DNA of 51,381 nt from Actinomycetes bacterium (GTDB lineage Bacteria > Actinomycetota > Actinomycetes > Nanopelagicales > Nanopelagicaceae). Where the stretch lies: positions 1-51,381 of the forward strand of contig JAHEXJ010000008.1 in the NCBI GenBank assembly GCA_023252155.1. Reading direction: 5' to 3'. Below are positions 13,308 to 30,308 of the stretch, piece by piece (positions within the stretch are counted from its first letter, which is position 1; the number at the start of each line of letters is the position of its first letter). The translations under genes were made by a program, and so were the position numbers. The notes below the pieces were generated by a model. That model had not been told where the DNA came from. It ran no database searches and saw nothing but the letters and a program-made list of their open reading frames with translations.

Positions 13308-13345
13308 CCAGATTGCCGCGCCAAGAACTACGGCACGGAAATCAT

Positions 13346-13966
13346 TTACACGCGGACTTTGCTCTTGAGTTGCGCGAATTTTGCACTGCCGATGCCGGAA
13401 ACTTTCTGCAGATCATCAACTGATAGAAATGGACCGTTCGCTTTTCGATAATCAATGATCCTCGAAGCCAAGACCGGCCCAATTCCCGGCAAAACATCCA
13501 ATTCACCAGTAGTGGCTCGATTGATATTGATCGGACCAGACTTCTTCTTCACTGGCTTAACCGGCGTACCACTCTGAATAAAAGGCTGGGAAACTGCAAC
13601 TGGATCGACGTACACCTGCTCACCATCTTTGACGATTCGTGCCAAATTAATATCGCTCGTGTCAGCGCCCGGGAGAGCTCCGCCCGCAGCAGTTATCGCA
13701 TCCATCACTCGAGAAGTCGCGGGCAATTCGTACACGCCAGGAGATTTCACTCCTCCCGCTACATCGACCATCACTTTGGGTGCCTCAACGACAATGGGCG
13801 GGGGTTCAACAACAGGTTGCGAATGTCCACGCGAAACGATGGCGATCAAAATTATTGATACCACGACAAAAACGGCAATCAGGGCTTTCTTATGGATAGG
13901 GGTAAAAGCGAGACCATCGGCCCAGTCCCGATACCGATCACGCAGCTCATCGACAAAGTCACCCAT
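13346..13966 (-). CDS. comEA: ComEA-like DNA-binding competence protein
   Basis: 206 residues. A cytoplasmic N-terminus of about 25 residues precedes one membrane helix (about 29-46), so most of the protein is outside the membrane. A SLBB domain follows (VMVDVAGGVKSPGVYELP), then a flexible linker, and the C-terminal helix-hairpin-helix pair (ININRATTGELDVLPGIGPVLASRIIDYR), which binds double-stranded DNA for uptake through ComEC. This gene marks the left end of the island described below; in most actinobacteria leuS or a few small genes lie directly upstream. Confidence 0.94.
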   Translation of the reverse strand: MGDFVDELRDRYRDWADGLAFTPIHKKALIAVFVVVSIILIAIVSRGHSQPVVEPPPIVVEAPKVMVDVAGGVKSPGVYELPATSRVMDAITAAGGALPGADTSDINLARIVKDGEQVYVDPVAVSQPFIQSGTPVKPVKKKSGPININRATTGELDVLPGIGPVLASRIIDYRKANGPFLSVDDLQKVSGIGSAKFAQLKSKVRV

Positions 13967-14049
13967 GTGCCCATTGAAAGGGGCTCCACTTAACTATTTC
14001 TCAGAACCAGCACCGTTTGTTTAGCATTATCCGTTGTTGATAACGTGAA

Positions 14050-14859
14050 CTAGCGCGCGGACGTTATTAAGGCGTCTTGGAGATTTAGAACTGTAACACT
14101 CTCATACTCATCCTCAGCCATCTCTTCGGTAATCCATTTCGGGACAGTTGCAACTTGGTCCTGTGTCCCGTAACCCATCGATGGTGAATAATCTGAGCCC
14201 CACATGAGACGTGATGCGCCAAAGGTCTCTAAAAGCTCACAAACATAAGGTCGAGCCCCAATGTAAGGATAAATTGGATCTACCGCATAAAATCCCGACA
14301 ACTTTACGAACAAGTTGGGCAACTTCGCCAAATCTAAGAGCGGGCCTATTCGCTCTCTGATTTGCGCCTGAGTTTTTAGAGACTCGGACCCAGGAAGTCC
14401 CATATGGCTAATAAGAATTTTGCAGGTCGACAATTGCGCGAATTGGTCTCGGAAGTGGATTATCGTTGTTGGGTTCGCATTAATACTTAATATCGCCCCC
14501 CGTTCACCTATTCTATGAAGAGCCGATATAACGTTCTCGGATAATCTTTCACTTTTCTCGCTGAGATAAAGGGCACATCCAGAAAATCCGCTCTCCAGGC
14601 ATTCCACAATTTCGATGTTCGCTGAATTCGATGAGGGATCAATAAAGCCAAGAGGATGGATCCACGGATGTGCCATGGCAAGTTTCAAGATGTAAGAATT
14701 ATTTCCCTTGTAACGCTCATTTCCTTCGTAACCAATGACCAATGCCGAATCAATTCGACCCAACTTGCGGATATTCTCATACTCGTCAATCTCAGCATTG
14801 GGATACAAGTCACCCTTAAATCCACGCTCGAATAGATGGATGTGTGAATCATTTGTCAT
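14050..14859 (-). CDS. Amidohydrolase family 2 protein, possible sugar lactonase
   Basis: 269 residues. The metal-site motif HIH is at residues 6-8 near the N-terminus, with ISHMG at about 150-154 (H152) and MWGSDYSPS at about 219-227 (D223). These are the ligand and catalytic positions of the amidohydro_2 TIM-barrel family (COG3618), which includes L-fucono-1,5-lactonase and 2-pyrone-4,6-dicarboxylate lactonase as well as decarboxylases. Within an operon of sugar-acid enzymes, hydrolysis of an aldonolactone is the most natural role, but this is inference. Its ATG overlaps the upstream regulator by 4 nt (ATGA), and it is the last gene of the five-gene operon. Confidence 0.8.
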   Translation of the reverse strand: MTNDSHIHLFERGFKGDLYPNAEIDEYENIRKLGRIDSALVIGYEGNERYKGNNSYILKLAMAHPWIHPLGFIDPSSNSANIEIVECLESGFSGCALYLSEKSERLSENVISALHRIGERGAILSINANPTTIIHFRDQFAQLSTCKILISHMGLPGSESLKTQAQIRERIGPLLDLAKLPNLFVKLSGFYAVDPIYPYIGARPYVCELLETFGASRLMWGSDYSPSMGYGTQDQVATVPKWITEEMAEDEYESVTVLNLQDALITSAR

Positions 14860-16178
14860 TCTTCAGAACCGATTGCGTTAGCCAAACCGTGAATATTCAC
14901 CGAAAAAACGCTTTGTGGCCGACCCGCCCGCGTTGAAGCCTCTACCCCAACCTCTGACGCATAACCCGCCTTAACCAATGCTCCAAGGATTCGCCGAGCA
15001 GATCGAGCCTCAATACCGTAAGACTCGGCAAGTTGGCGCGCCGTAAGCGAACTTGAATCTAAGCGTCGAAGTGCGCCGAGCAATCGAACATAGGACAGCG
15101 GACCAATTCCGAGTGATTCTGCAATAGCCTGAAACATTGAATTCGTCGCACGCATTTTCAATTTTGAATCTGCGTCCGCGTTAATCATTTCGCCATCAAC
15201 TAAAATAGCGTGGGTAATCCCAGTCTTTTCTGCAAGTGCAACTGCGGCTCGCGCCCGTTCCTCAGCGACGGACAGAGTTAGGCCCACCCCGAATCCGACA
15301 AGAGATCCTTCTGGCAAACCTTCGACATCAAGCGCAGATCGTTGGCCAGAACGTAATCGCGAAATAGTTTCATCAACCATGCCTCGACTGGTGGTTATTA
15401 AAAATTCGGAATCTGGTGAGCCAAGAAGGTGCCCACGAAGTTGCTTCGATAATTGAACTGCGACCGCCTTCATTCGTAGTCGCCTGACCTGCGACTCGTA
15501 AGGATCAAGTCTCTCATTCACATCTACTGGAAGGCGTACCAACGCCAACGCCATATGCGTCGCCTTGCTCTGCGCAAGTTCCGCCGTCAATAGCGCACGC
15601 TCCAAAGAATCTCTTAATGACGCGCGCGTATGTCCAATGCGCCATGCTGGGATTCCCATTTCTTGTAAATCTCGGTACACGACTTCAAGACAAGTCAAAC
15701 ACTCCTCTACTTCGCCGCTCTTCCAGAGAGATACGTGAAAAGCAACAAGCTCTTCACGAGTCGGCACTTCAATTGCTCCCAGCGTGCTAAACGGCATAAG
15801 ATTCTTAGGAACAGGAAGCTCAATTTCATTAAATGTTTCAGCGACCCAGTTGTCATCTATTGTGTCTATGCTCATTCGGGGTATCACGCCTTTTGAATGC
15901 AAGAGAATTCTAACGAGCGTGTTATATAGGTCGAGGCCAGTATGGGGAATGTATTGCAAACTTGCGGTCCAAGGAGATTTCTCTCTCATCGCCATCGCAT
16001 AAGGCAGTCGACCTGTGAAAAGTATGACGTCACAAAAACCGTCTAACTCTCGAGCTAGATTGATGGACTCAACGGGCGTCGTATAGGTGCGAGTCGCAAA
16101 ACCTTCGTCACTCACTACCGTAGATGCAACCTTGGCAAGTAACTCAACCGAGTCAATCGGGCCCACTAATCCGATCAT
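14856..16178 (-). CDS. Putative transcription regulator: N-terminal sensor, GGDEF/GTP-cyclohydrolase-III-like middle domain, C-terminal winged helix
   Basis: 440 residues. Residues 1-130 look like an alpha/beta (Rossmann-like) domain opening with MIGLVGPIDSVELL. Residues ~200-345 contain a GGDEF-like fold segment, GFGVGLTLSVAEERARAAVALAEKTG (about 295-320), which resembles GTP cyclohydrolase III or the degenerate GGDEF domain of CdaR/PucR proteins, and no GGDEF active-site motif is seen. Residues ~370-435 form a helix-turn-helix with LTARQLAESYGIEARSARRILGALVKAGY. I do not recognise a characterised member. It sits inside the operon it may control and could bind the inverted repeat in front of the divergent dehydratase. 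Confidence 0.6.
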   Translation of the reverse strand: MIGLVGPIDSVELLAKVASTVVSDEGFATRTYTTPVESINLARELDGFCDVILFTGRLPYAMAMREKSPWTASLQYIPHTGLDLYNTLVRILLHSKGVIPRMSIDTIDDNWVAETFNEIELPVPKNLMPFSTLGAIEVPTREELVAFHVSLWKSGEVEECLTCLEVVYRDLQEMGIPAWRIGHTRASLRDSLERALLTAELAQSKATHMALALVRLPVDVNERLDPYESQVRRLRMKAVAVQLSKQLRGHLLGSPDSEFLITTSRGMVDETISRLRSGQRSALDVEGLPEGSLVGFGVGLTLSVAEERARAAVALAEKTGITHAILVDGEMINADADSKLKMRATNSMFQAIAESLGIGPLSYVRLLGALRRLDSSSLTARQLAESYGIEARSARRILGALVKAGYASEVGVEASTRAGRPQSVFSVNIHGLANAIGSEE

Positions 16179-16199
16179 GAATTCACTTTACTGGTTCGC

Positions 16200-16955
16200 T
16201 CATACTGTAAAGACTGTTCCCGAAAGTGTTGCCGCTGTTGGTTCTGCCAATAAAAGAAGAACTCGAGCAACATCCTCGGCCGTGCCAAGACTGCTTCTTA
16301 TTTTCTCAATTTCGCCCGGATCAGCACCATAAGAGAGAGCCTCTTGAAGAGAGGCACGCATCAGTGGAGTGTCTACATCTCCAGGACAAAGGGTATGAAC
16401 TCGAAGTCCAGCGGACCTGAGCTGCTTATCAAGTGAAAGCGCGAGCCCATGGATTCCGCCTTTGCTGGCGCCGTAGGCGATCGAGCCCGAGGGAAGAGTC
16501 ACCCCTGATCGTGAAGCAACTAAAACCAAAGTCCCACCTTCAGGTAACAGGTGCGTGGCCGCATACTTCGAGATAAAGAATGCACCTTTGAGGTTCACAT
16601 CAATGACTGAATCCCATATGGCTTCGGTGAACTCGCGGATATCCAGCCGTTGACCTCGCATAACCCCTGCAGCACTTAGAACCACATGGATTCGACCAAC
16701 ATTTGCCACCGCACTCGAGAAAGCCTCTTTGACCTCCGATTCAACAGATATATCGGCCACAACAATATAAGGATCATGGCCATTTGCATGTAGCTCGGCG
16801 GCAACAGCATCTAGGCCAACCCTGTCACGATCCAGAAGAACTAATCGTGCGCCTCGCTCGGCTCCCAAGAGAGCCGTGACTCTTCCGACGCCGTTAGCTG
16901 CCCCAGTGACAAGAATCGTCAAACCCTCAAGAACCTGACGAGATGACGATCTCAT
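16200..16955 (-). CDS. Short-chain dehydrogenase/reductase
   Basis: 251 residues. The classical SDR motifs are present: the dinucleotide-binding TGAANGVG near 17-24, SAAG where NNAG is usual, and the catalytic Ser with YGASKGG (YxxxK). D39-type acidic residue after beta-2 (LLDRDR) suggests NAD preference, which is inference. It probably oxidises or reduces a sugar or sugar-acid intermediate; in non-phosphorylative deoxysugar pathways an SDR oxidises the 2-keto-3-deoxy acid. ATGA overlap with the E1 beta gene. Confidence 0.87.
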   Translation of the reverse strand: MRSSSRQVLEGLTILVTGAANGVGRVTALLGAERGARLVLLDRDRVGLDAVAAELHANGHDPYIVVADISVESEVKEAFSSAVANVGRIHVVLSAAGVMRGQRLDIREFTEAIWDSVIDVNLKGAFFISKYAATHLLPEGGTLVLVASRSGVTLPSGSIAYGASKGGIHGLALSLDKQLRSAGLRVHTLCPGDVDTPLMRASLQEALSYGADPGEIEKIRSSLGTAEDVARVLLLLAEPTAATLSGTVFTV

Positions 16956-17935
16956 TTCTGATACCCCACCAGACGAGTTGCCGCCTCCGCAATTGATTGA
17001 GCGTTTGGCAAAAGTGCAATCTGCAGTGATGGCGCAGCTGGAAAATGCACGTCGGGAGTCGCGATGCGAACAATCGGTGCCTTAAGGTGAGCGAACGCTT
17101 CCTCTGCACACCGCGCTGCGATCTCGCCGCCAAAGCCGCCAGTGAGATTAGCTTCGTGGGTAATGACCAACCTCCCGGTTCGAGATACGGATTCGATAAC
17201 AGTTGTCATATCCAAAGGAGAAAGCCATCGTAAGTCAATCACATCAGCTTCAATGCCCCGCGCCGTCAACACGTCAGCAGCGTCCAAAGCACTTGGAACC
17301 ATTGATCCCCACGACACAATCGTCACATCCTTACCAGCGCGGATTGTTCTCGCCCCGCCAATATCTTCGACAGCCGTGTCTAGTCGAACTATGCCTTTAG
17401 TTGGATACAGCATTCGTGTTTCGAGAAGAAGAACTGGGTCATCGCTTTGTACTCCAGAACGAATCATCTGATATGCATCATCTGGAGTTGAAGGCAAGCC
17501 AATCCGCAAACCAGGAGTATGCGCAAAGTATGCCTCTGCTGAGTGCGAGTGCTGCGAGCACGACCCCGGAGAGAAGCCTTGCTGTGCACGGATCAAGAGT
17601 GGTGCTTTGTTGCGCCCACCCGACGCATAGCGGGCAGTCGCAATTTGATTAACGATTTGATCCATTGCCACGAAGGCAAAATCTACGTACATGATTTCGG
17701 CAATTGGACGAAGTCCCGTAAGAGATGCACCTAATGCCATACCCAAGAATGCCTGCTCTGTTATCGGAGTATCGAAAATTCTTGACTTGCCAAATTCGTC
17801 GTAAAGTCCCTTAGTTGCGCCAAAGGGGCCACCCGGCAAGGCCACATCCTCGCCAAAATAAATGGTGTCGGGATGGCTTGCAAGTGACCAACGCAATGCA
17901 GCATTTACTGCCTGGATATATCGCAACTCAGGCAT
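16952..17935 (-). CDS. 2-oxoacid dehydrogenase-type E1 component, beta subunit
   Basis: 327 residues, the usual length. It shows the transketolase pyrimidine-binding domain (FGEDVALPGGPFGATKGL, then FDTPITEQAFLGMALGASLTGLRPIAEIM) and a C-terminal transketolase domain (VTIVSWGSMV). It pairs with the alpha gene just upstream, overlapping it by 8 nt. Together they form a TPP-dependent heterotetramer of the pyruvate, branched-chain or acetoin dehydrogenase type. No E2 or E3 gene is in the window, so the acceptor is unknown. Confidence 0.93.
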   Translation of the reverse strand: MPELRYIQAVNAALRWSLASHPDTIYFGEDVALPGGPFGATKGLYDEFGKSRIFDTPITEQAFLGMALGASLTGLRPIAEIMYVDFAFVAMDQIVNQIATARYASGGRNKAPLLIRAQQGFSPGSCSQHSHSAEAYFAHTPGLRIGLPSTPDDAYQMIRSGVQSDDPVLLLETRMLYPTKGIVRLDTAVEDIGGARTIRAGKDVTIVSWGSMVPSALDAADVLTARGIEADVIDLRWLSPLDMTTVIESVSRTGRLVITHEANLTGGFGGEIAARCAEEAFAHLKAPIVRIATPDVHFPAAPSLQIALLPNAQSIAEAATRLVGYQK

Positions 17936-18857
17936 ATACGTGATCCTTTGCTGTCGTGGAGTTCGGTGTTGACATGGCTCGAGCGCTCATGACGGCTTCC
18001 TCGATTTCTATTGCGACTTCATCCTCAATTGCCTTGTATTGCGCCGCAAGATCCGAATTTGCTTTTAGTTTAAGTCTGGCAATTGGCTCATCCAAACGAG
18101 CCTGTGCCAAATCGCCTGCGGGACGATACTGCTGAGCGTCCCCGCTGTAATGACCAACCAATCGAGCTGTCTTGGCTTCAATTAGCGTTGGCCCTTTGCC
18201 TGCCCGTGCACGCTCGACAGCTTGATAAGAGGCATCCGCCACAGCTTGCACATCGTTTCCATCAACGCTTACACCAGGAATTCCAAATGCGGGAGCGCGC
18301 TCGACAAGCGTTGTGCTTCGAATCATGTCCTTGATCGGACTCATTTCGGAATACACGTTGTTCTCCACGATAAAAATCAGAGGCAAGTCCAACACCGCAG
18401 CAAGATTAAGAGTTTCCGGAACGACTCCTTGGTTGACTGCACCATCACCGAAACTCACCACGACAACTTGCCCAGTTGCTTTTATCTTTGCACTCAAGGC
18501 CGCCCCTGCAGCGATGGGAGCCCCGGCGCCTACAATTGAATTCTCACCAAGAAAACCATCCTTAAGTGAAGAAAAGAAAGGAGAGCCAGCTCGACCACTA
18601 TTGAGATCTGATTCGCGCCCCATGAACTCAGCGAACAGTTGAGAAAGACTCACGCCACGGGCGATTGCCCATCCATGACCCCGATAAGTAGCACTTACCC
18701 AATCAGTTGGTTCCAGAGTTGAAAGCACGCCGACTGGAATGGCCTCTTGTCCGTTGCAAAGATGCACCGAACCCGGGATCTCTCCACCCTCCTTCAGGCT
18801 CAGAACCCGCTCTTCAAACAGACGGATGCGACAAAGTTCGCGAAACGTATTCTCCAT
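17928..18857 (-). CDS. 2-oxoacid dehydrogenase-type E1 component, alpha subunit (TPP-binding)
   Basis: 309 residues. The TPP/Mg motif GDG (137-139) is followed 26 residues later by NN (166-167), exactly the family spacing. RGHGWAIARG near 59-68 matches the active-site loop region. The protein lacks an N-terminal extension. This is the first gene of a five-gene operon (E1 alpha, E1 beta, SDR, regulator, amidohydrolase). TTAGGA lies about 8 nt before the ATG, and TTGCCA with AATATC at 17-nt spacing is a weak promoter candidate upstream. Acetoin- or branched-chain-type substrate cannot be decided from sequence. Confidence 0.92.
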   Translation of the reverse strand: MENTFRELCRIRLFEERVLSLKEGGEIPGSVHLCNGQEAIPVGVLSTLEPTDWVSATYRGHGWAIARGVSLSQLFAEFMGRESDLNSGRAGSPFFSSLKDGFLGENSIVGAGAPIAAGAALSAKIKATGQVVVVSFGDGAVNQGVVPETLNLAAVLDLPLIFIVENNVYSEMSPIKDMIRSTTLVERAPAFGIPGVSVDGNDVQAVADASYQAVERARAGKGPTLIEAKTARLVGHYSGDAQQYRPAGDLAQARLDEPIARLKLKANSDLAAQYKAIEDEVAIEIEEAVMSARAMSTPNSTTAKDHVYA

Positions 18858-18928
18858 GGATGTTTCCTAACAAATAGCCGAATTAAGATCGATATTCTGA
18901 TTCTACTAATCAATGGCAAAAAAAGAAA

Positions 18929-18969
18929 GTGTCTAGAGGTATTCACCCTAAATAGAAGCACCTCTACAC
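18929..18969. promoter_or_regulatory. Interrupted inverted repeat over the dehydratase promoter (candidate operator)
   Basis: Left arm GTGTCTAGAGGT (18929-18940) and right arm ACCTCTACAC (18960-18969) are inverted copies with seven perfect inner pairs (TAGAGGT/ACCTCTA), and the outer pairs continue after a 2-nt skip. The repeat flanks the -35 and covers most of the -10 box of the rightward promoter, a good place for a repressor. The likely regulator is the HTH protein at 14856-16178, by proximity only. Confidence 0.5.
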
Positions 18970-18970
18970 T
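18942..18970 (+). promoter_or_regulatory. Promoter of the enolase-superfamily gene
   Basis: A -35 TTCACC (18942-18947) and -10 TACACT (18965-18970) are separated by 17 nt. The transcript would have a leader of about 45 nt with a strong ribosome site (GGAGG, 4 nt before the ATG at 19023), so this gene is not leaderless, unlike many others here. Confidence 0.55.
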
Positions 18971-19022
18971 TAATACATAGGTGAGGCTGTGAAAAAAAAT
19001 CACAAACGATTACGGAGGAAAA

Positions 19023-20150
19023 ATGCACATTACCAGGGTGGATTCGAAAGTCGTCGGTACGGCGCACTTCGTCCAAATCGAATGTAACGATGGCACCGTG
19101 GGTATTGGGCAATCAGCATGTTGGGCATACCCCGAAGCTGTTCACACCATTATCGAAACTTTTCAAGATTACTTGGTCGGGGCCGACCCGCTTCGAATCG
19201 AACACCACTGGCAATACCTCTATCGAATGGGACCCTTTCGAGGATCAGTTCTCACCTCAGCTGTAAGCGCCATCGATATTGCCCTTTGGGATATCAAGGG
19301 AAAAATCCTTGAGGTGCCTATCTATCAATTGCTCGGCGGTGCCGTGCGTGAAAAAATTCGCCTACACCTGCTTCTGCCTGGAACGGGCACCGAAGCACTC
19401 GTCAGCCAAGCCAAAATCGCAGTGAAAGATGGATTCACGGCTATCAAAATGGATCCGCTGCCTGGAAACTACGCGGATCTCGGATTGGCTGAACTTGTTC
19501 GCCAAACTTCGGAAACCACTCATACCGTTCGCGATGCTGTTGGGCCAGAGATAGATCTCATATTTGAGCTTCATCGAAAATTGACGCCGTTGAAGGCGCC
19601 AAGTGTCATCGCCGCAATCAGTTCTACCCTCCCACTTATGATCGAAGATCCGATCCAGATAGACAGCATCTCTTCACAGGCAGACATGGCGAGATTGAAT
19701 GCGGCTCCTATTGGTAACGGAGAACGGATGCATACCATTTGGGAGTTTCGTGAACTCCTAGTTCAGGGAGGTGCGCAATATGTGCGACCCGATCTCGGTC
19801 TCGCTGGAGGAATTACACATACGAAGAAGATCGCCGCTATTGCGGAATCATTTCATTCTTCAGTAATTATGCACAATTGTCTTGGGCCCGTCCTCACTAC
19901 TGCCGCTATTCATCTGGCAGCCTCAATACCCAATTTCGAAGTGCTTGAGTACAGCCCTTTCGACGATTCTCTTCCAGGACCGAAAATAAAACCTAGTGTC
20001 CGACGCGAAGGAGGTTGGATGCCACTCCCAACGCAACCCGGACTCGGCGTAGAGATTGACTGGGACGGTTTAGATGCACACGATCTAGTAGGACGTCCTA
20101 TAACACAAATACCACTTCGTCAGGATGGGTCAGTCGCCTACTCTGTTTAA
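19023..20150 (+). CDS. Mandelate racemase/muconate lactonizing (enolase superfamily) sugar-acid dehydratase
   Basis: 375 residues. An N-terminal capping domain is followed by a TIM barrel. By comparison with the galactonate/mannonate dehydratase (DgoD/ManD) group, the metal ligands appear to be E182 (in FELHRKL, where many members have Asp), E208 (MIEDPI) and E234 (GNGER), with H184 and H284 (MHNCLGP) as the likely acid/base residues. LTPLKA after E182-H184 recalls the ManD motif. It probably dehydrates an acid sugar to a 2-keto-3-deoxy acid; the substrate is not determinable. It is transcribed divergently from the E1 operon and converges on the mutarotase gene with a 9-nt gap. Confidence 0.88.
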   Translation: MHITRVDSKVVGTAHFVQIECNDGTVGIGQSACWAYPEAVHTIIETFQDYLVGADPLRIEHHWQYLYRMGPFRGSVLTSAVSAIDIALWDIKGKILEVPIYQLLGGAVREKIRLHLLLPGTGTEALVSQAKIAVKDGFTAIKMDPLPGNYADLGLAELVRQTSETTHTVRDAVGPEIDLIFELHRKLTPLKAPSVIAAISSTLPLMIEDPIQIDSISSQADMARLNAAPIGNGERMHTIWEFRELLVQGGAQYVRPDLGLAGGITHTKKIAAIAESFHSSVIMHNCLGPVLTTAAIHLAASIPNFEVLEYSPFDDSLPGPKIKPSVRREGGWMPLPTQPGLGVEIDWDGLDAHDLVGRPITQIPLRQDGSVAYSV

Positions 20151-20159
20151 CTAAAAAAT

Positions 20160-20498
20160 CTAATATTTAAAGCGGAATACTTCCTTCAGCCAAAGAGGTT
20201 CCCCACCTGCGTCCGTTGTGGCTTCAAATAGATCCATCAAAGAAGCGCTCCATGCTTTCTGTACTTGATTCGCTGCCATAATCGCCATCGCATTGCTATA
20301 TCCCTGTAGTGCTTGCAACCGACAAACGACAATCTCCTCATGGCGCCAAATCTGATAATTGCAGATACCCACAAGATCTAGCATTTCTAGAAGCTCCGGC
20401 CAGACACTGCGATGACGAAGATCGTATTCCGCCCCCGCGCCGGACTTCAAACGATAGAGATACAAGAGAAACTCGTCCTCTTGCATATCCCCGTTCAT
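20160..20498 (-). CDS. RhaM-like L-rhamnose/fucose mutarotase (DUF718)
   Basis: 112 residues, the family size. The pattern YRLKSGAGAEYDLRHRSVWPELLEMLDLVGICNYQIW matches RhaM (L-rhamnose mutarotase), a dimeric ferredoxin-like protein that interconverts sugar anomers; H and W positions of the RHxxxWPEL motif are intact. Its ATG overlaps the upstream permease stop by 4 nt, so it is the last gene of the transporter operon. This is the clearest hint that the imported sugar may be a 6-deoxyhexose such as L-rhamnose or L-fucose. Confidence 0.85.
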   Translation of the reverse strand: MNGDMQEDEFLLYLYRLKSGAGAEYDLRHRSVWPELLEMLDLVGICNYQIWRHEEIVVCRLQALQGYSNAMAIMAANQVQKAWSASLMDLFEATTDAGGEPLWLKEVFRFKY

Positions 20499-21391
20499 CG
20501 GATCGAACCCGCCATTGCGCCAGAGAGAATCCGTCTTTGAAAAACGAGATAGACAAGAAGCACTGGAAGAAGAGCAACAAGAAGTCCAGCGCTTATGAGA
20601 GGGATAGAGATGTCATACTGCCCCGACAAAAGGGCAATACCCACCATTAATGTCGTTTTATCCGATCCACCCATGATTACAAGAGGCAGAAGAAGATCGT
20701 TCCACATCCAAACAAAATTCAAGATGGAGAGTGCAGCAATTGCCGGAGTGGCAATAGGTAAAAGAACCGAAAATAAAATCCGGAAATGCCCCGCTCCATC
20801 CATTCGGGCGGCCTCGACGAGTTCATCTGGAATCGTCTTAAAGTACGCTGCAAGTTGATAGGTCCCTAAAGGCAATCCAAATGCGGCCATCGCTAATATC
20901 AAGCCCTGGTAGGTGCCGCCGAAACCCATCTGTAAAATAGTTTCATACAATGGATAAATGATCGCTTGGCTAGGAATGACCAGCATCGCAATAACAAATA
21001 AGAAAATCAAATTGCTACCTCGAAATTTGATCTTTGTCACGGCATATGCGAGCAATAACGCACAAATCGTTGTCAATAGAATTCCACCGATAGTAACAAT
21101 TGCACTATTCATGAAAAGTCTCGGAACATTCATACGGGAAAATGTTTCGCGGTAATTCTGAATACTCAGATGACCTGGCAACGAAAGTGGGTTCCTTGCA
21201 TATTCAGGACTGCTCTTAAATGAGTTGAGTACTGTAAAAAGAAGAGGATAGAGGGCCGCCACCGCAATCATGAACAAGACGACGGTGATTATCCACTTAG
21301 TGCCAACGGACTTAATCAAAGCAACAAATGCTCTTCGATTCCTGATTTTTTTGTCCTCGTCCACAATTACGGTGCTGACTGTAGCCATCAT
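20495..21391 (-). CDS. Sugar ABC transporter permease (MalG type)
   Basis: 298 residues. Six membrane helices are expected, with the cytoplasmic EAA loop reading EAARMDGAGHFRILFSVLLP, which contacts the ATPase. The long-ish cytoplasmic N-terminus (about 30 residues) is typical of MalG-like subunits. The first ATG overlaps the partner permease stop by 4 nt. It belongs to the CUT1 group of carbohydrate importers with the preceding permease and binding protein. Confidence 0.93.
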   Translation of the reverse strand: MMATVSTVIVDEDKKIRNRRAFVALIKSVGTKWIITVVLFMIAVAALYPLLFTVLNSFKSSPEYARNPLSLPGHLSIQNYRETFSRMNVPRLFMNSAIVTIGGILLTTICALLLAYAVTKIKFRGSNLIFLFVIAMLVIPSQAIIYPLYETILQMGFGGTYQGLILAMAAFGLPLGTYQLAAYFKTIPDELVEAARMDGAGHFRILFSVLLPIATPAIAALSILNFVWMWNDLLLPLVIMGGSDKTTLMVGIALLSGQYDISIPLISAGLLVALLPVLLVYLVFQRRILSGAMAGSIR

Positions 21392-22320
21392 TTTTCAGCG
21401 CCCTTACCCTCGTGGTACATATATCGAACACTTAAGCCAGAAAAGATCGCCACAAAGACGAACAACGTCATACCGATGGCTGCTCCGTAACCTCGGTCCA
21501 AAAACTGAAATGTCGTGAGGAAAACCAGGAATTCGGGAAGCATTGTTGATACCCCCGGGCCCCCTTGCGTTAGTGCGTAAATCAAAGGGAACATCCAAAC
21601 AAGAACTCCCGAAGCGCATAAAACGGTCCAATAACCAACCATGGGTTTAATGAGTGGCAAAACTATTTGCAAGAGCATGCGCCAAAATCCTGCCCCGTCC
21701 AACCGCGAAGCTTCGATGACATCGAGTGGAATACTTGATAAGGCGGACAGATAAGTGAGGACCCCTAGCCCAAAGAAACTCCATAAGGCTACTGAAGTCA
21801 ATGACAAGAGAGAACTAGTTGGACCATTCAACCATGCAATTGCAAACCGCTTGAGTCCAACTGCGCGCAAAATTGAGTTTAGAGCTCCGTTGGGAGCCAA
21901 CATCTGTCGAAACATGATTCCAACCACAATTGGAGCAATCGTGTACGGCAAGAAATAGGTTGAACGAAAAAATTTCCAGCCAGGTGACTTCTGGAAGATC
22001 AAGACGGCAAGTATGAGGGGAAGTAAAATCCAAACGGGGAGCGTGCAAACAACAATGAAGGCGTGAAAAAAAGTTTTTCTTACTGTCGGATCATGCAACA
22101 TTCGATCGTAATTATGCAAGCCCGTGAATTTGGGATCGCTGAAACCTCTGGTTTCCAACATACTCAACCAGATCCCTTTAATGAGAGGGATGAATTTGAA
22201 CTCAAGAACTAGGAAAAGACCGGGAAGAACAAATAGGAATCCCACATATCGATGCAGTTTCGAAATTGCAGTGTTTCTCCGAAAAAATGAAACCAGCGCA
22301 CCGTCTTGAACGGTATTCAT
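21388..22320 (-). CDS. Sugar ABC transporter permease (MalF/UgpA type)
   Basis: 310 residues from the ATG at 22320, which has AAGGGGA about 9 nt upstream; a GTG at 22356 in the same frame is possible but has a poor ribosome site. The EAA loop EASRLDGAGFWRMLLQIVLPL is present in the second half and the first helix is preceded by RYVGFLFVLPGLF, both standard. It forms the membrane channel with the MalG-type subunit encoded next. Confidence 0.92.
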   Translation of the reverse strand: MNTVQDGALVSFFRRNTAISKLHRYVGFLFVLPGLFLVLEFKFIPLIKGIWLSMLETRGFSDPKFTGLHNYDRMLHDPTVRKTFFHAFIVVCTLPVWILLPLILAVLIFQKSPGWKFFRSTYFLPYTIAPIVVGIMFRQMLAPNGALNSILRAVGLKRFAIAWLNGPTSSLLSLTSVALWSFFGLGVLTYLSALSSIPLDVIEASRLDGAGFWRMLLQIVLPLIKPMVGYWTVLCASGVLVWMFPLIYALTQGGPGVSTMLPEFLVFLTTFQFLDRGYGAAIGMTLFVFVAIFSGLSVRYMYHEGKGAEK

Positions 22321-22384
22321 TGATGTATTCCCCTTGCGAGCCAATTTAATCCTCACCTTTTAGCGTTTCCTCGTAATTAAACAT

Positions 22385-22417
22385 AGTAGGGGCACAAGGC
22401 TTCCTCATACCCCTACT
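22385..22417 (-). other. Hairpin between the binding-protein and permease genes
   Basis: AGTAGGGG and CCCCTACT (22385-22392 and 22410-22417) form a perfect 8-bp stem with a 17-nt loop. There is no T tract. Hairpins here in mal-type operons usually protect the abundant binding-protein mRNA or reduce read-through into the permeases. Confidence 0.6.
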
Positions 22418-22433
22418 GGTGTTTTATATACTT

Positions 22434-23744
22434 TTAGTTCTTGCTTGGACTGTTCTGCAATGCAGTCTGCATTTGGGCGGTCCAATCAGCTACTGTCATT
22501 TGTCCGAGAGCTACTTGCTGCCACCCACGACTTAACGCATCAGCTTCTTGACTGCTAAGCAATACCCCGACGTGAAGAGTCGGGTGCGCAACAATCTTCT
22601 GAATCTGTGACAAGGCCGGTGAATTGGGAAGAGCGCTCTTGTCAACCTTCTTATTCAAAGCCTGACCCCCAACGTCTTTGACCCACAAGTTTCCATTAGT
22701 TGCGCCTGCAATCCACTTAACGAACTTAAAGGCAGCAACTTTTTGCTTGCTCCATGCAGTCACGCCATATACGGAGCCTTCAATTCCGGAGAACTTCTTG
22801 GCTAACGGAGCCGAGGGATCTATTGATGGCCAAAGCATGGCACCAAGGTTGGCATCTCCCAATGCTTTTCCAAATGACTGCCAGTTAACAGCATCTGAAA
22901 TAATCGTGCCAGCGAAAGCAGCTTTCCCACTTGAGAAGAGATCTGCCGCATCAGGCAACATCGAGATCGACGGTGCGTTTGTATTGGTCCAACCTGAGTT
23001 TGTCAGCATCGCAAGTCCTTGAAGGATTTTTACCATCTTTGGATCAGTCCATGGCATCTTTCCAGCAAGTATCTTTCGCATATCTGCTTCAGTCAGGTAG
23101 TTACGAGCAATTTCAGGAAAGTCCCAGTAAGCAGGGAATACGCCGGTGAGACCTAATGCTAGACAAGTGCTACCAGTGGCTTCAATGGCCTTGCATGCTG
23201 TGCCGAATTCAGACATCGTCGTAGGTGGCTTATTAGGATCAAGACCAGCCTTAGACAGAATTAACTTGTTGTAATACATGACGTTGCCTTGATAACTGAA
23301 AGGCAATCCGTAACATTTCTGAGTCACATCAAATCCGAGACATGCTCCACTATAGGTGAGTAGATCTTTACCGGCGGCACGGACATCTGCAGGAAGGGGA
23401 ACATAGGCTGATCGACGATCGAAAAGCTCTAGTCCTGCGTTATTTGCCATGACATCGGGCCCAGATTTCGAAGTGATATAGGGACCTTGTACTTCTGAAT
23501 ACTTGTCAAAAGGCACAGTCTCCAACTTCACCTTAATCGATGGATTGGCCTTTTGAAATGCGGCTACCGTATCCGCCCAGAATTTGGCATTGCCAGGAGC
23601 CCAGCCAAGTACTTTGATGGTCGTAACTTTAGGCGCCGCAAAACTGTAACTGCCACTCACAACGGCGAGCATCGCCGAAACAATTAGAGTAACAATTACG
23701 GGAAGCCCAAGTCGCTTTCCTCTGTATTGCTTTTCCCTCTTCAT
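22434..23744 (-). CDS. Extracellular sugar-binding protein of an ABC importer
   Basis: 436 residues. A Sec signal peptide (basic MKREKQYRGKR, hydrophobic core about 13-30, likely cut after SFA near residue 36) is followed by the bacterial solute-binding protein family 1 fold (WADTVAAFQKANPSIKVKLETVPFDKY). There is no lipobox cysteine. AAGGAG lies about 6 nt before the ATG. The gene is bracketed by two strong hairpins in the mRNA, consistent with higher output than the downstream permeases. Ligand unknown. Confidence 0.93.
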   Translation of the reverse strand: MKREKQYRGKRLGLPVIVTLIVSAMLAVVSGSYSFAAPKVTTIKVLGWAPGNAKFWADTVAAFQKANPSIKVKLETVPFDKYSEVQGPYITSKSGPDVMANNAGLELFDRRSAYVPLPADVRAAGKDLLTYSGACLGFDVTQKCYGLPFSYQGNVMYYNKLILSKAGLDPNKPPTTMSEFGTACKAIEATGSTCLALGLTGVFPAYWDFPEIARNYLTEADMRKILAGKMPWTDPKMVKILQGLAMLTNSGWTNTNAPSISMLPDAADLFSSGKAAFAGTIISDAVNWQSFGKALGDANLGAMLWPSIDPSAPLAKKFSGIEGSVYGVTAWSKQKVAAFKFVKWIAGATNGNLWVKDVGGQALNKKVDKSALPNSPALSQIQKIVAHPTLHVGVLLSSQEADALSRGWQQVALGQMTVADWTAQMQTALQNSPSKN

Positions 23745-23774
23745 CTTGATCTCCTTTGGGTGATTGGGGGGATT

Positions 23775-23802
23775 TTTTTGACAGCAGAAATGCTGTCAAA
23801 AA
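23775..23802. other. 12-bp perfect hairpin/palindrome in front of the binding-protein gene
   Basis: TTTTTGACAGCA and TGCTGTCAAAAA are perfect inverted copies separated by GAAA (plus strand reading). The right arm covers the stop codon of the Gfo/Idh/MocA gene. The T run is on the 5' side and the A run on the 3' side on both strands, the reverse of a Rho-independent terminator, so it is either an mRNA stabilising structure or a DNA operator. Confidence 0.65.
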
Positions 23803-24776
23803 TTTGTGGCACGCAATCGCGTGATTTCGCCACCATTGCTGGCGCTACGGAGAACGGCTTGTGCGATTTCTACGACATGAACCCCTTCTTCAGGAGTACA
23901 TAACGTAGACGGCTGGTTTTTCAGAACACAATCAAGGAAGTACTGCAACTCAGCAACGAGCGGTGCGTTCTCGATACCAAAACCGAAATGCTGGGGTTCA
24001 TCGTCAACGGAGGCAGTTTCGAGATGAGCCGTGCGGCCTGTTCCAAAGACACTCACGCTGTCGTCCACTTGTGCAGGGTCACCTTCAGAAAGAAGGCAAG
24101 ACACTTGAATCGTCGAAATGGCTCCACCATTGTGCAGACAGTGAGCAACAAAATAATCAACCTTGCCCTGCGAATTTCGGTGTTCAAGGGCACTTACTTC
24201 CGTTACCGGTCGAGCGGTAAGCCAGATCGCCAGATCGAAGTCATGCACTCCCAATAGAAACGCTGGATGAATATCTGGATAGAGGGAAATTAAGGCGCGG
24301 GATCGATTACGACTCAGCGTCACACCCACTACGGAACCGAATGCCGGTTGACTAATCACTGTCTTGAGATTTTGATGTCCCTGAGAAAAGCGGAGGAGAT
24401 GCCCTGGAAGGCACTTTCGCCCAAGGGCGGCCGCGACTTCAGCAAACTTTTGCGCATCCTCTGGAGAATCTGCAAAAGGTTTCTCAACAAGAACGTCGAC
24501 CCCCGCGGACATTAATTCTGTAGCGATGTGCAGTCGGGTTTTGCTCGGAGTAACAATTGACGCGGCATCCAATTTAGTCTCGGCCAACATTTCAGCCACT
24601 GAACTGAAAATCTTTGCGGTCTTTGCCAACGGATCTCTTTGCCACTCTAAACGACGTTTCTCGTTTGGTTCCACAATTGCAACGAGTCGGACCGAAGGCA
24701 TCCCTGCATATACGGAGACATGCTCTCTCCCAAATATGCCCCCTCCGATTACCGCAACGCGGATTGGCAGTGTCAT
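23796..24776 (-). CDS. Gfo/Idh/MocA family NAD(P)-dependent sugar dehydrogenase
   Basis: 326 residues. The N-terminal Rossmann fold shows IGGGIFGREH near 10-19, and EKPFADSPEDAQ carries the family EKP lysine motif. A C-terminal alpha/beta dimerisation domain follows. Such enzymes oxidise sugars, inositols or deoxysugars at a ring carbon, often making a lactone when acting at C1. It overlaps the M20 gene by 4 nt (ATGA). With a lactonase-type hydrolase and an acid-sugar dehydratase in the same island, a first oxidation step is plausible. Confidence 0.88.
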   Translation of the reverse strand: MTLPIRVAVIGGGIFGREHVSVYAGMPSVRLVAIVEPNEKRRLEWQRDPLAKTAKIFSSVAEMLAETKLDAASIVTPSKTRLHIATELMSAGVDVLVEKPFADSPEDAQKFAEVAAALGRKCLPGHLLRFSQGHQNLKTVISQPAFGSVVGVTLSRNRSRALISLYPDIHPAFLLGVHDFDLAIWLTARPVTEVSALEHRNSQGKVDYFVAHCLHNGGAISTIQVSCLLSEGDPAQVDDSVSVFGTGRTAHLETASVDDEPQHFGFGIENAPLVAELQYFLDCVLKNQPSTLCTPEEGVHVVEIAQAVLRSASNGGEITRLRATNF

Positions 24777-25948
24777 GGTTTACGACGATCCACTAACTGA
24801 ACAAGCATCGTCTTCAAAGCTTTGATACCTACTTCAATGCACCCTTCATCAACATCAAAGTTTGAAGAATGTAGCGGGGATGAAAATCCCTTTGCATCAG
24901 GCGAGGTTCCCAGTTTCATGTATAACATCGGTCCAAGTTCACCCAACAGGGCGAAATCATCTGAGGTCAAAGGTGGTGAGTCTATTTGAAAAGCTTGAAT
25001 TCCATCATTAGACAAATTTTCTAGAGCGATCTTGACGAGTTGGACATCATTCATCAAAGCAGGCATTTCGTTTGCCCACGTGATGGAACTGGATAACCCG
25101 ACAACATCGGCCACGCCAGCACAAACCCTTTCAATTGTTTGCTTTAGTCGATCTCTTACAAATGGATCATGAGTTCGGAGTGTTCCAGTCAATTCAGCAG
25201 AAGCGGCTAAGGCACTTTGCGAGGAGCCGGCATGAAAAGTGCCAACGTTGAATCCGACAAGATCGTTGGGATTGCGCTCTCTATTCAAACTGGCATGCAG
25301 GGCCAATACCGCGTTGCTTGCCGCCAAGATTGCATCTCGTCCATTTGCTGGGGTTGCCACATGCGCCGAAACCCCTAAAAACGTCACGCTGAATGCATCT
25401 TTGGCGGCCATTGCCGCTCCCACATCGACCCCGATCATTCCAACCTGAAGCTGTGGCCAACAATGCAATCCAAGAACAGCCGTGTAAGTCTTGTCTAAAT
25501 ACCCGGACTCGAGCATCGCCCGAGCCCCAGAGCCCTGCCCGAAGGGGATTTCTTCGGCAGGCTGAAACATCAGAGTTACTCTCTGACGTAAATCAGGCTG
25601 GGTGCTTAACTGCTCTGCAAGGCCGAGTAGGACAGTCATATGTACATCGTGACCACACGCGTGGGCCACCCCAGGATTCTGTGATGAATAGGCAACATCC
25701 TTTCCATCTCGGATCGGATAGGCGTCCATATCAGCTCTTAATAGGATCCGAGAACCCTCATAATCACCTGCCCACTGTGCCAAAACCCCGGTTCCGCCGA
25801 CCTGAGACTTCACTGACCAACCCAAATCAATGAGCTGATTTGCCACGATCCCGCTTGTTCTATACTCCTCGAAGCGCAATTCGGGATGAGAATGAAAGTC
25901 TCGTCGAAGAGCACTAAGCCTGTCATAAAAGTCAGAATGAGTGTACAT
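24773..25948 (-). CDS. M20 family metallo-amidohydrolase (hippurate hydrolase/aminoacylase-like)
   Basis: 391 residues from the ATG at 25948; in-frame TTG and GTG at 25957 and 25954 are alternatives and none has a clear ribosome site. The metal-site motif HACGHDVHM and the catalytic-glutamate region PAEEIPFGQGSGARAM are intact. The family deacylates N-acyl amino acids, but members also remove acyl groups from other amides. It is the first gene of the transporter operon, which suggests that the imported compound or its product carries an N-acyl group; this is inference. Confidence 0.88.
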   Translation of the reverse strand: MYTHSDFYDRLSALRRDFHSHPELRFEEYRTSGIVANQLIDLGWSVKSQVGGTGVLAQWAGDYEGSRILLRADMDAYPIRDGKDVAYSSQNPGVAHACGHDVHMTVLLGLAEQLSTQPDLRQRVTLMFQPAEEIPFGQGSGARAMLESGYLDKTYTAVLGLHCWPQLQVGMIGVDVGAAMAAKDAFSVTFLGVSAHVATPANGRDAILAASNAVLALHASLNRERNPNDLVGFNVGTFHAGSSQSALAASAELTGTLRTHDPFVRDRLKQTIERVCAGVADVVGLSSSITWANEMPALMNDVQLVKIALENLSNDGIQAFQIDSPPLTSDDFALLGELGPMLYMKLGTSPDAKGFSSPLHSSNFDVDEGCIEVGIKALKTMLVQLVDRRKP

Positions 25949-25960
25949 TTCCACCAATGT

Positions 25961-25983
25961 CCGTAATTAAGCGATAATTACGG
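25961..25983. promoter_or_regulatory. Perfect 9-bp palindrome between two divergent catabolic genes (candidate operator)
   Basis: CCGTAATTA (25961-25969) and TAATTACGG (25975-25983) are exact inverted copies around a 5-nt centre. The site is just upstream of the M20 gene start and 100 nt before the GH20-like gene, so one bound regulator could control both directions. A partial copy (CGTAATTAA) occurs upstream of the MalF-type gene near 22372-22380. Confidence 0.55.
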
Positions 25984-25986
25984 AAT

Positions 25987-26017
25987 GCTATTGTCGCTTC
26001 TGGAAATCGTCAATAGC
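25987..26017. promoter_or_regulatory. Second inverted repeat in the divergent region
   Basis: GCTATTG (25987-25993) and CAATAGC (26011-26017) are perfect 7-bp inverted copies with a 17-nt spacer. The right arm lies directly in front of the AAGGGG ribosome site of the small upstream frame at 26031. It may be a second operator or an RNA hairpin in the leader. Confidence 0.35.
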
Positions 26018-26030
26018 CAAAGGGGTCCTC

Positions 26031-26084
26031 ATGAATATCCACCAGATCCTGGAAACACACCGTCTGACCGAAGAGAGGCGCTGA
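26031..26084 (+). CDS. 17-residue upstream open frame (possible leader peptide)
   Basis: ATG at 26031 preceded by AAGGGG with good spacing, reading MNIHQILETHRLTEERR and ending in TGA just 1 nt before the ATG of the GH20-like gene. The ribosome site is better than that of many real genes here, and the stop/start spacing suggests coupled re-initiation. No known leader peptide is recognised. Confidence 0.35.
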   Translation: MNIHQILETHRLTEERR

Positions 26085-26085
26085 T

Positions 26086-27759
26086 ATGAGACTGCTCAGC
26101 GGTCGGGTTGCCCTCCTTGGAGCAGCCCAACACCCTCACGCAACAAAGCGCCTCAAGCAATCGTGGCCCAACCTCCATTGGTTTGAAGCCAAACCTGGCG
26201 ATGCGTTTCTAGATGAAGTCGCCGTGATCGTCCTTGCGACAAGTGCAGATAAACCTGAAGGCGCATATTCAATCCAAATTTCAGGTGATCGAGCACCAAG
26301 AATCAATATCGATGGTGGACCATTTTCAGGAGTCATTTACGGAGTTGAAGAACTCATTCAGCGCAGATCTACAAGCTCTCCTGCAGGGGTCCAACTCATT
26401 GTGGCTTCGATCGAACGAGTGCCAACTCTTAGCTACCGCACATTTTGGACTTGGGACCACTCCTCCAACTGGGAACTAGATCAAATCGGCCACCAAGAAA
26501 CGGGAGTCTTCAATCCTTACGGCAAACCACCAACTGGTTTTCTCGCCGATTACAAGAGGATGGTGGATTTTTGTAGTGCCCATCAAATAGCAGCAATAGT
26601 CGTGTACGGCTTTCTGCGTGATTCTCACGGTGGAATTCCTTCTGCACAAGAACTCTGTCGCTATGCAAATGAACGTGGAGTTCGCATTCTTCCAGGCATT
26701 GCAATTTGCGCGTATGGTGGCGTTTATTGGGAAGGACGCAATCAATATAACCTCGCGACCTGGCTAAAAAAGAATCCTTCATTTGCGTCACAAATACATT
26801 CCGATATCGGCTTTCAGATTGAGGATCTCTCCTTTCCGCTCGCATTTCCCCGAAGCGACTACACGCTTTCTGGGTGTCCTTCAGAACCTGCAAATATGGC
26901 ATGGATGGAAGATTCAGTCTCCTGGCTCGCTGAGACCTTTGACATTGGTGGAATCAACATCGAAAGTGGAGACTATGGAGTTTGTGATTGCACCCGGTGT
27001 AACTCTCGTCGTGGTGAACGCGAATCTGCAGAAAAGAGAGGCGAATCGCTCGAATCTTGGTCTCATGCCGACCTAACTCATAACTTCCCAAGACTCTTCA
27101 AGGCAGCGACTTCAAAACGATCCGACTTGTGGCTCTATTGCGAATTGCAGTGGGACAACTTGTTGGACCCCCTTGGAAGTGATTCCTTCCAGTCAATGCC
27201 CGAAGGTGGCGTCTACCAACACACGCTCAATCGCTCTTACTGGAATCGAGTAAAAAGAGAACTTACAGCCAACGACGTCGCCCGTTTACCGACCAGCAAA
27301 AACATCTTTCGTTGCCAGTTCGCTAGCCAGTGGAACGGCGACGAACGAACCGAGAGATACGCCTTTAACGGAAGAGACTTTGCAGATATGTCTCGTAAGG
27401 CCGCCGACGTCGGCATGATGGGACTCACGGTCTGGGGAGAAGCGTCGCCGCATCACGTTTCAACCGAACTTAGTTATCTTGCCTTCGGTCGTTTCAGTTA
27501 TGACCCATCTTTGACATGGGATGTATTCAAAGCAGAAGAAATTGATCCCAGGCTGGGTGGAGAGGCCACCGCTAATGAATTTGTATCGATTCTCGAAGAG
27601 CTAGATCGTAACCAGGTGTTGTCTCCGAAGAGACTTGAAGTTCTGCGTGGAATTTCCGCTGACGGCATAAAAAGTACGGCAGGTGACACGGAAGGGAGAT
27701 GGATCTGGCTCGCAAACCGTCTCAATCGCCGACTGGAAATGATGAAAGGCAAGGATTAA
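26086..27759 (+). CDS. GH20-superfamily-like glycoside hydrolase, cytoplasmic
   Basis: 557 residues. Residues ~45-110 look like the small alpha/beta domain that precedes GH20, GH67 and GH84 barrels (IDGGPFSGVIYGVEELIQR). The barrel follows with SYRTFWTWDHSSNW and, near 288-306, GGINIESGDYGVCDCTRCNSRRG. The E293/D296 pair sits where such enzymes carry acidic active-site residues, and C300, C302 and C305 could bind a metal. No signal peptide is seen, so it acts inside the cell on an imported glycoside. I cannot name a characterised family; hexosaminidase- or glucuronidase-like activity is possible. Confidence 0.6.
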   Translation: MRLLSGRVALLGAAQHPHATKRLKQSWPNLHWFEAKPGDAFLDEVAVIVLATSADKPEGAYSIQISGDRAPRINIDGGPFSGVIYGVEELIQRRSTSSPAGVQLIVASIERVPTLSYRTFWTWDHSSNWELDQIGHQETGVFNPYGKPPTGFLADYKRMVDFCSAHQIAAIVVYGFLRDSHGGIPSAQELCRYANERGVRILPGIAICAYGGVYWEGRNQYNLATWLKKNPSFASQIHSDIGFQIEDLSFPLAFPRSDYTLSGCPSEPANMAWMEDSVSWLAETFDIGGINIESGDYGVCDCTRCNSRRGERESAEKRGESLESWSHADLTHNFPRLFKAATSKRSDLWLYCELQWDNLLDPLGSDSFQSMPEGGVYQHTLNRSYWNRVKRELTANDVARLPTSKNIFRCQFASQWNGDERTERYAFNGRDFADMSRKAADVGMMGLTVWGEASPHHVSTELSYLAFGRFSYDPSLTWDVFKAEEIDPRLGGEATANEFVSILEELDRNQVLSPKRLEVLRGISADGIKSTAGDTEGRWIWLANRLNRRLEMMKGKD

Positions 27760-27787
27760 TAACAGAATCTACTTTCAAACTCGGCCA

Positions 27788-30280: not shown

Positions 30281-30286
30281 GGGCCT

Positions 30287-30292
30287 AGGTTA
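30287..30292 (-). promoter_or_regulatory. Leaderless -10 box of leuS
   Basis: TAACCT on the minus strand with exactly 6 nt (AGGCCC) before the ATG at 30280. No ribosome site can fit. A -35 is not obvious. Confidence 0.45.
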
Positions 30293-30308
30293 CAGGGGTC
30301 TTGCATAA

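Follow-up and report, generated by a model that had tools for sequence, protein, structure and literature searches.

The non-phosphorylative L-fucose/L-rhamnose pathway ends in a 2,4-diketo-3-deoxy acid hydrolase. Its protein families (a mutarotase-like protein, a dehydrogenase, a lactonase-like Amidohydro_2 protein, an MR_MLE dehydratase and an SDR) occur together, at family level, in an island of 13 open reading frames (ORFs) that fills positions 14050–27759 of a 51,381-nucleotide stretch of DNA from an actinomycete of the Nanopelagicaceae (assembly GCA_023252155.1, contig JAHEXJ010000008.1; the whole stretch is called the window below). Unlike that pathway, the island has a Gfo/Idh/MocA protein as its first dehydrogenase and a dehydratase nearer to galactonate dehydratase, and the place of the FAH hydrolase or aldolase is taken by an E1 α/β pair, an enzyme usually taught as part of a complex. 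The pair shares its E1 families, thiamine diphosphate (ThDP) motif and histidine motifs with the pyruvate dehydrogenase (PDH), branched-chain keto acid dehydrogenase and acetoin dehydrogenase complexes, but differs in having no E2 or E3 gene nearby, in scoring below the NCBI PDH cut-offs, and in having two relatives with decayed E2s. The myo-inositol pathway (IolG, IolE and IolD, the last a ThDP enzyme needing no E2) likewise combines a Gfo dehydrogenase, a dehydratase and a ThDP enzyme; however, IolD comes from another ThDP family, and the dehydratase family of the island acts on acid sugars. KivD, also a ThDP enzyme, belongs to a family other than E1. PMC10644656 describes this ketoacid decarboxylase acting on 2-keto-3-deoxy-arabonate in a butanetriol pathway, where a 2-keto-3-deoxy sugar acid is handled without E2, albeit in an engineered setting. 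In the open-access literature we found no description of a sugar pathway that ends with an E1 lacking E2, although one may exist elsewhere.

A sugar-type island with its own E1 pair

Judging from gene content and homology, we give roughly even odds (about 0.5) that the island encodes an oxidative sugar-acid route without phosphorylation, whose last step falls to an E2-uncoupled E1 working directly on a 2-keto acid. In the order we propose, a glycoside or sugar would be imported and oxidized without phosphorylation. Hydrolysis or deacylation would fall to the protein at 26086–27759 and the M20 amidohydrolase, and ring oxidation to the Gfo dehydrogenase, aided by the RhaM-like mutarotase. The lactone would then be opened by the Amidohydro_2 protein, dehydrated by the MR_MLE enzyme to a 2-keto-3-deoxy acid and oxidized by the SDR, after which E1 α/β alone would cleave or decarboxylate the resulting 2-keto or diketo acid to an aldehyde or acid, with no acyl transfer to a lipoyl-E2. 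MR_MLE dehydratases of the galactonate-dehydratase kind convert an aldonate to a 2-keto-3-deoxy acid. Because such an acid suits an E1, and no E2 is kept beside this one, direct decarboxylation or cleavage is the simplest reading. A first-pass annotation of the same DNA had proposed a pathway of this type; its interpretation is partly supported, and the observation beneath it is confirmed and proves wider than first reported.

The E1 α gene (17928–18857, minus strand; PF00676, 243.7 bits) carries the ThDP site, with the intact GDG..ENN motif that the first-pass annotation had noted, together with YRGHGWA and GHYSGD. E1 β (16952–17935, minus strand; PF02779 and PF02780) carries a QHS motif, and alignment to PDH E1 confirmed PDH-type ThDP and active-site histidine motifs in the pair. 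In PMC2663715, the PDH E1 β histidine is proposed as the second acid–base catalyst; its position was matched to the QHS of the window by alignment. Against the NCBI PDH models, α scores 270.5 (equivalog cut-off 393.85) and β 286.7 (cut-off 321). The SDR gene (16200–16955, minus strand; PF00106, 141.6 bits, with YxxxK in its translation) overlaps that of E1 β. The MR_MLE acid-sugar dehydratase (19023–20150, plus strand; PF13378 and PF02746) has D-galactonate dehydratase as its nearest NCBIfam model (NF010624, 259.6, below the cut-off of 311) and 3rr1 as its best PDB match. An intact E1 pair in a sugar-type gene set is thus confirmed by the ORF list, Pfam and motifs, and it recurs beyond the window.

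A scan with the E1 α protein found 405 relatives, and the best 80 went into the locus comparison. Among these, Rhizohabitans arisaemae holds relatives of all 13 island proteins in one 14-kb block, so that the search for the same gene set suggested by the first-pass annotation recovered it whole. Identities are 67% for E1 β, 63–64% for MR_MLE and the importer parts, 62% for E1 α, 56% for the SDR, 52% for M20 and 37–44% for the other five. Eleven of the 13 genes are collinear, with the 557-aa and Amidohydro_2 genes at swapped ends, and the genes flanking the block (rhodanese, GPP34, amino-acid permease) are unrelated. A chance neighbourhood is ruled out because all 13 proteins have relatives within this single block of another actinomycete. 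In an Actinomycetota metagenome-assembled genome (L031), MR_MLE (60%) and E1 α (56%) occur in the same divergent arrangement; this locus ends just past E1 α, and its other neighbours differ (an aldo-keto reductase and another Gfo protein). The MR_MLE–E1 α linkage is thus kept in three loci. Close E1 α relatives are rare, since only one genome besides the source genome matched at E ≤ 1e-80 among 396 genomes of the phylum.

The island is an insertion between leuS and comEA. A LeuRS search of 12 same-genus genomes gave nine matches, and the region was compared in eight of these and in two class relatives, the ninth being left out with its leuS region near a contig start. All ten have the order leuS, comEA, comEC, holA. 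The gap separating leuS from comEA measures 60 to 1278 bases in them and 13.8 kb in the window, and no match to island genes was found at this site in any of the ten. Third-position GC is 0.42–0.50 in the 13 island genes versus 0.48–0.57 in 13 other selected genes of the window. No flanking repeats of note were found in 13300–30300, and no tRNA in the window. The route may have been acquired horizontally.

Absence and decay of E2 beside the E1 genes

A six-frame search of the whole window with custom lipoyl and E2 profiles gave nothing significant, a single E3 sequence used as query matched nothing in the same 51 kb, and neither E2, lipoyl domain nor E3 occurs in the 20.9-kb Rhizohabitans locus (L030). 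An AcoC-type lipoyl protein, present after the E1 genes in three comparison loci annotated as acetoin-type, is likewise missing from the window. The first-pass observation of an E1 pair with no lipoyl E2 or E3 nearby therefore stands, and the pattern recurs in relatives. Before tree building, 31 further neighbourhoods from the family of Rhizohabitans (28 of them within the clade described here) and one from the phylum were added. The resulting E1 α tree of 124 rows places the window inside a 43-row actinobacterial clade (SH-aLRT 100). Clade members retain YRGHGW (43/43), G[DE]G..NN (42/43), GHY (42/43) and the β QHS (39/43), rows without a motif being those in which the stretch is absent or was missed by the search pattern. 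Where annotated, their E1 records bear general names only, such as ‘thiamine pyrophosphate-dependent dehydrogenase E1 component’.

E2 and lipoyl genes were sought up to 5 kb out, and a row needed 3 kb or more of flanking sequence on each side to count as evaluable; the window, a short locus in the tree, was labelled ‘none’ by hand, its whole length being covered by the six-frame search. Within the clade, 34 rows lack E2/lipoyl genes, one has them and eight lie too near a sequence end. Outside it, 27 rows lack them (and may hide divergent E2s), 42 have them and 12 are undeterminable. The proportions without E2 (34/35 versus 27/69 evaluable rows) give a Fisher p of 2e-9, a value that ignores kinship and one-query sampling bias. 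A lipoyl-profile match in one locus (L121) reads as a biotinyl domain in alignment (ESMKMET) and was not counted as lipoyl.

A six-frame search without filter revealed decayed pseudo-E2s in two of the 34 rows, so that the 35 evaluable rows comprise one real E2, two pseudo-E2s and 32 with nothing. Specifically, in Mycolicibacterium neoaurum (L070, 11918–12772) another residue stands in place of the lipoyl lysine and the DHRxxDG motif has been lost, and L184 (11294–11995) lacks both the lipoyl domain and the catalytic His. Both give sub-threshold Pfam matches only, with an E1 of intact motifs beside or near them. The clade seems to be losing E2, because these two loci carry decayed E2s near an intact E1. 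The first-pass annotation had named a standard E2/E3 beside orthologous E1 genes in relatives as evidence that would tell against it; an E2 was found beside E1 in just one of the 35 evaluable rows, a Rhodococcus plasmid locus (L114) that is sister to L184 on the E1 tree (support 91). In this locus, positions 12000–13694 encode a complete lipoyl E2 that carries a fused muconolactone-isomerase-like (MIase) domain.

The E1 of the island may have become an independent enzyme, because in almost every neighbourhood examined its close relatives stand without other complex parts beside them. More tentatively, though still as a plausible proposal, a whole actinobacterial lineage of PDH-type E1 heterodimers may have separated from E2/E3, with the pseudo-E2s as relics of that link, to serve as a stand-alone ThDP enzyme for C–C cleavage. 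It would close a number of pathways that oxidize sugars and cyclic acids, the dehydratase being exchangeable between MR_MLE and a fumarase/CMLE-type lyase. If true, a lineage that kept E1 while the adjoining E2 decayed or went missing would offer a natural experiment on E1 acting alone, non-phosphorylative sugar catabolism would gain an ending besides aldolase and diketo-acid hydrolase, and some forty actinobacterial E1 loci with only general names where annotated would receive a testable function.

Several observations weigh against an E1 acting alone. The clade rows are related and their counts not independent, the complete E2 of L114 directly follows a fused E1, and the E1 pair of the window keeps the PDH E1 motifs, with nothing in its sequence to indicate an inability to use a lipoyl domain. 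Furthermore, the absence concerns the vicinity of E1 genes, with a genome-wide view of two genomes (the source and Rhizohabitans), and a further E2 may be missing because the source genome (1.81 Mb, contamination 4.24%) is 83.8% complete. Feeding of a distant E2, as the first-pass annotation also suggested, is conceivable because L114 has an E2 and the source genome has five E2 matches. In addition, the fused-E1 subclade and the loci with IclR, aminotransferase, M20 and acetoacetate-decarboxylase-like (ADC) genes have different neighbours. One substrate class for the whole clade is unlikely given these differences, and the clade probably serves several substrates.

Competing endings for the pathway

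The chief alternative, which we consider unlikely although a serious contender, is that the E1 performs the first step of an ordinary oxidative decarboxylation, passing its acyl group to a housekeeping actinobacterial E2 and shared E3 to give an acyl-CoA. The E2 complements of the two genomes bear on this. Of the five matches in the source genome, the E2 on contig C97 adjoins an E3-like gene and has no E1 β match in the 14 kb read, a configuration that would suit a shared E2. The match on C5 is a fragment with a short identical stretch in common with the end of the E1 operon on C84, which it probably continues; those on C41 and C106 resemble each other, and each is accompanied by an E1 β of its own; and that on C75 reads as a Kgd-type fusion. 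The C41 and C106 E1 β–E2 segments (L124 and L125) are very similar on two contigs, possibly from two strains mixed in the assembly. Rhizohabitans has six matches: three adjoin an E1 β, a fourth adjoins an E3-like gene, a fifth lies some 6 kb away from an E1 α, and the sixth sits in a 1267-aa frame, by which it is probably Kgd-type. Since the matches are nearly all partnered, joined or Kgd-type, neither genome has a clear orphan E2, and each has a housekeeping E2. A lone E2/E3 elsewhere, which the first-pass annotation thought worth seeking, thus took no clear orphan form, although the housekeeping E2 with its E3-like neighbour is present. The MIase-fused E2 of L114 is closest to this housekeeping type (48–49% over ~470 aa to the C97 copy, compared to 28–31% over 440–463 aa to three E2s with their own E1 β and 37% over 219 aa to the C5 fragment). 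The two pseudo-E2s show an E2-linked past, and the intact E1 motifs also speak for this alternative. However, E2 genes have decayed or gone missing while E1 was kept, and no E2 stands beside E1 in 34 of the 35 evaluable rows.

An E1 acting like acetoin E1, transketolase or IolD, which would cleave or join a C–C bond adjoining a ketone of the diketo compound made by the SDR, with no 2-keto acid decarboxylation, appears improbable. An SDR is found in 30 of 42 clade loci, the SDR and E1 β genes of the window overlap, and the combination of Gfo, dehydratase and ThDP enzyme resembles inositol catabolism, the island Gfo being distantly IolG-like (93 bits versus a cut-off of 355). On the other hand, there is no recognisable carboligase or acceptor-sugar enzyme, and the three acetoin-type comparison loci retain their E2 gene. 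Far less probable still is an E1 pair carried as incidental cargo, with an unlinked aldolase or hydrolase ending the pathway. Pfam identified no FAH hydrolase or aldolase among the 13 island genes, and elsewhere in the genome there are one FAH-family gene, the only one found, and two DHDPS-family genes, the genome-wide search taking in no other aldolase families. The FAH gene, however, adjoins a gene read as gltX, one DHDPS gene sits in another cluster, and the linkage of MR_MLE to E1 α in three loci is difficult to reconcile with cargo. The claim of no dedicated aldolase or hydrolase is supported in part. For the E2-uncoupled E1, an aldehyde product would fit the aldehyde oxidoreductase gene in five of 42 clade loci; none is among the island's 13 genes.

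Recurrent neighbours and the remaining island genes

Neighbours were counted in 42 fetched clade loci, window excluded, by sequence search of the whole locus. In addition to the SDR (30), these gave Gfo (19), VOC (19), Lyase_1 (18), Amidohydro_2 (14), M20 (8), MIase (6), AFOR (5), MR_MLE (5) and FAH (2). They outline a recurring module of dehydrogenase, lactonase-type protein, dehydratase, SDR and E1, in which FAH is seldom found. A typical Lyase_1 group holds LacI, Gfo, Amidohydro_2, a ribose-type ABC importer, VOC, the lyase, an SDR and the E1 pair. Its lyase is nearest to carboxymuconate cycloisomerase, below the cut-off, and in the single Lyase_1 cluster checked (L163) Amidohydro_2 is fuconolactonase-like (199.5 bits versus a cut-off of 400). 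Read from its genes, this group is the logic of the window with another elimination enzyme replacing MR_MLE. A second clade group carries IclR, M20, ADC and aminotransferases. A shared M20 theme was rejected: M20 occurs in eight of the 42 loci, yet the window M20 query missed the L070 M20 at E 1e-5, so the clade M20 genes are not one close group. The aldehyde ferredoxin oxidoreductase-like genes lie in L159, L162, L164, L166 and L183, and were Pfam-checked in L164.

Within the island, one minus-strand run comprises, in order, the M20 amidohydrolase, Gfo/Idh/MocA dehydrogenase, solute-binding protein, two permeases and RhaM-like mutarotase, and a second run after it E1 α, E1 β, SDR, a probable regulator and the Amidohydro_2 protein. 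On the plus strand, MR_MLE lies between the two runs and the 557-aa protein at one island end. Overlaps of 4 or 8 bases at six neighbouring gene pairs are operon-like. Eleven of the 13 ORFs match Pfam families above curated cut-offs (Amidohydro_2, SDR, E1 β, E1 α, MR_MLE, RhaM, two ABC permeases, solute-binding protein, Gfo/Idh/MocA and M20); the other two, 14856–16178 and 26086–27759, have no Pfam match at E 0.001. The former (minus strand, 440 aa, 44% to L030) is probably a transcription regulator because of weak C-terminal winged-helix matches (MarR_2/HTH, sub-threshold, best E 0.0012); its first 360 residues have no Pfam family, and L030 is its only match among the compared loci.

The Amidohydro_2 protein (14050–14859, minus strand; PF04909, 73.9 bits; 37% to the Rhizohabitans copy), a possible lactonase, appears to be a distant relative of fuconolactonase (24.9 bits versus an NCBIfam cut-off of 400). 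The RhaM-like mutarotase (20160–20498, minus strand; 41% to L030) scores 62.9 bits with PF05336 and 30.3 with TIGR02625 (cut-off 99.6). Two ABC permeases (20495–21391 and 21388–22356, minus strand; both PF00528; 64% and 63%) and a sugar-type solute-binding protein (22434–23744, minus strand; PF13416 and PF01547; 64%) form an incomplete importer, because the island encodes no ABC ATPase; the Rhizohabitans locus likewise yielded none. Of the complete oxidative sugar route claimed initially, the dehydrogenase, lactonase-type, dehydratase and SDR set is present, and the complete importer is not. The Gfo/Idh/MocA dehydrogenase (23796–24776, minus strand; PF01408; 38% to L030) is nearest in NCBIfam to UDP-GlcNAc 3-dehydrogenase (128.8 versus 450).

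The 557-aa protein (26086–27759, plus strand; 41% to L030) is a possible intracellular glycoside hydrolase. The ‘GH20-like’ label given to it is a hint from a match limited to domain 2 and below the cut-off (Glyco_hydro_20b, 13.3 versus 26.1; 17.1 for the L030 homologue), and an AlphaFold model from two sequences has a pLDDT of 48. Besides L030, a homologue was found in one of 396 phylum genomes, the source genome itself. The suggestion of an N-acylated glycoside as starting compound is weakly founded on this match and on a broad M20 one, the M20 amidohydrolase (24773–25957, minus strand; PF01546) scoring 284.1 with the general model TIGR01891, above its cut-off of 153.75.

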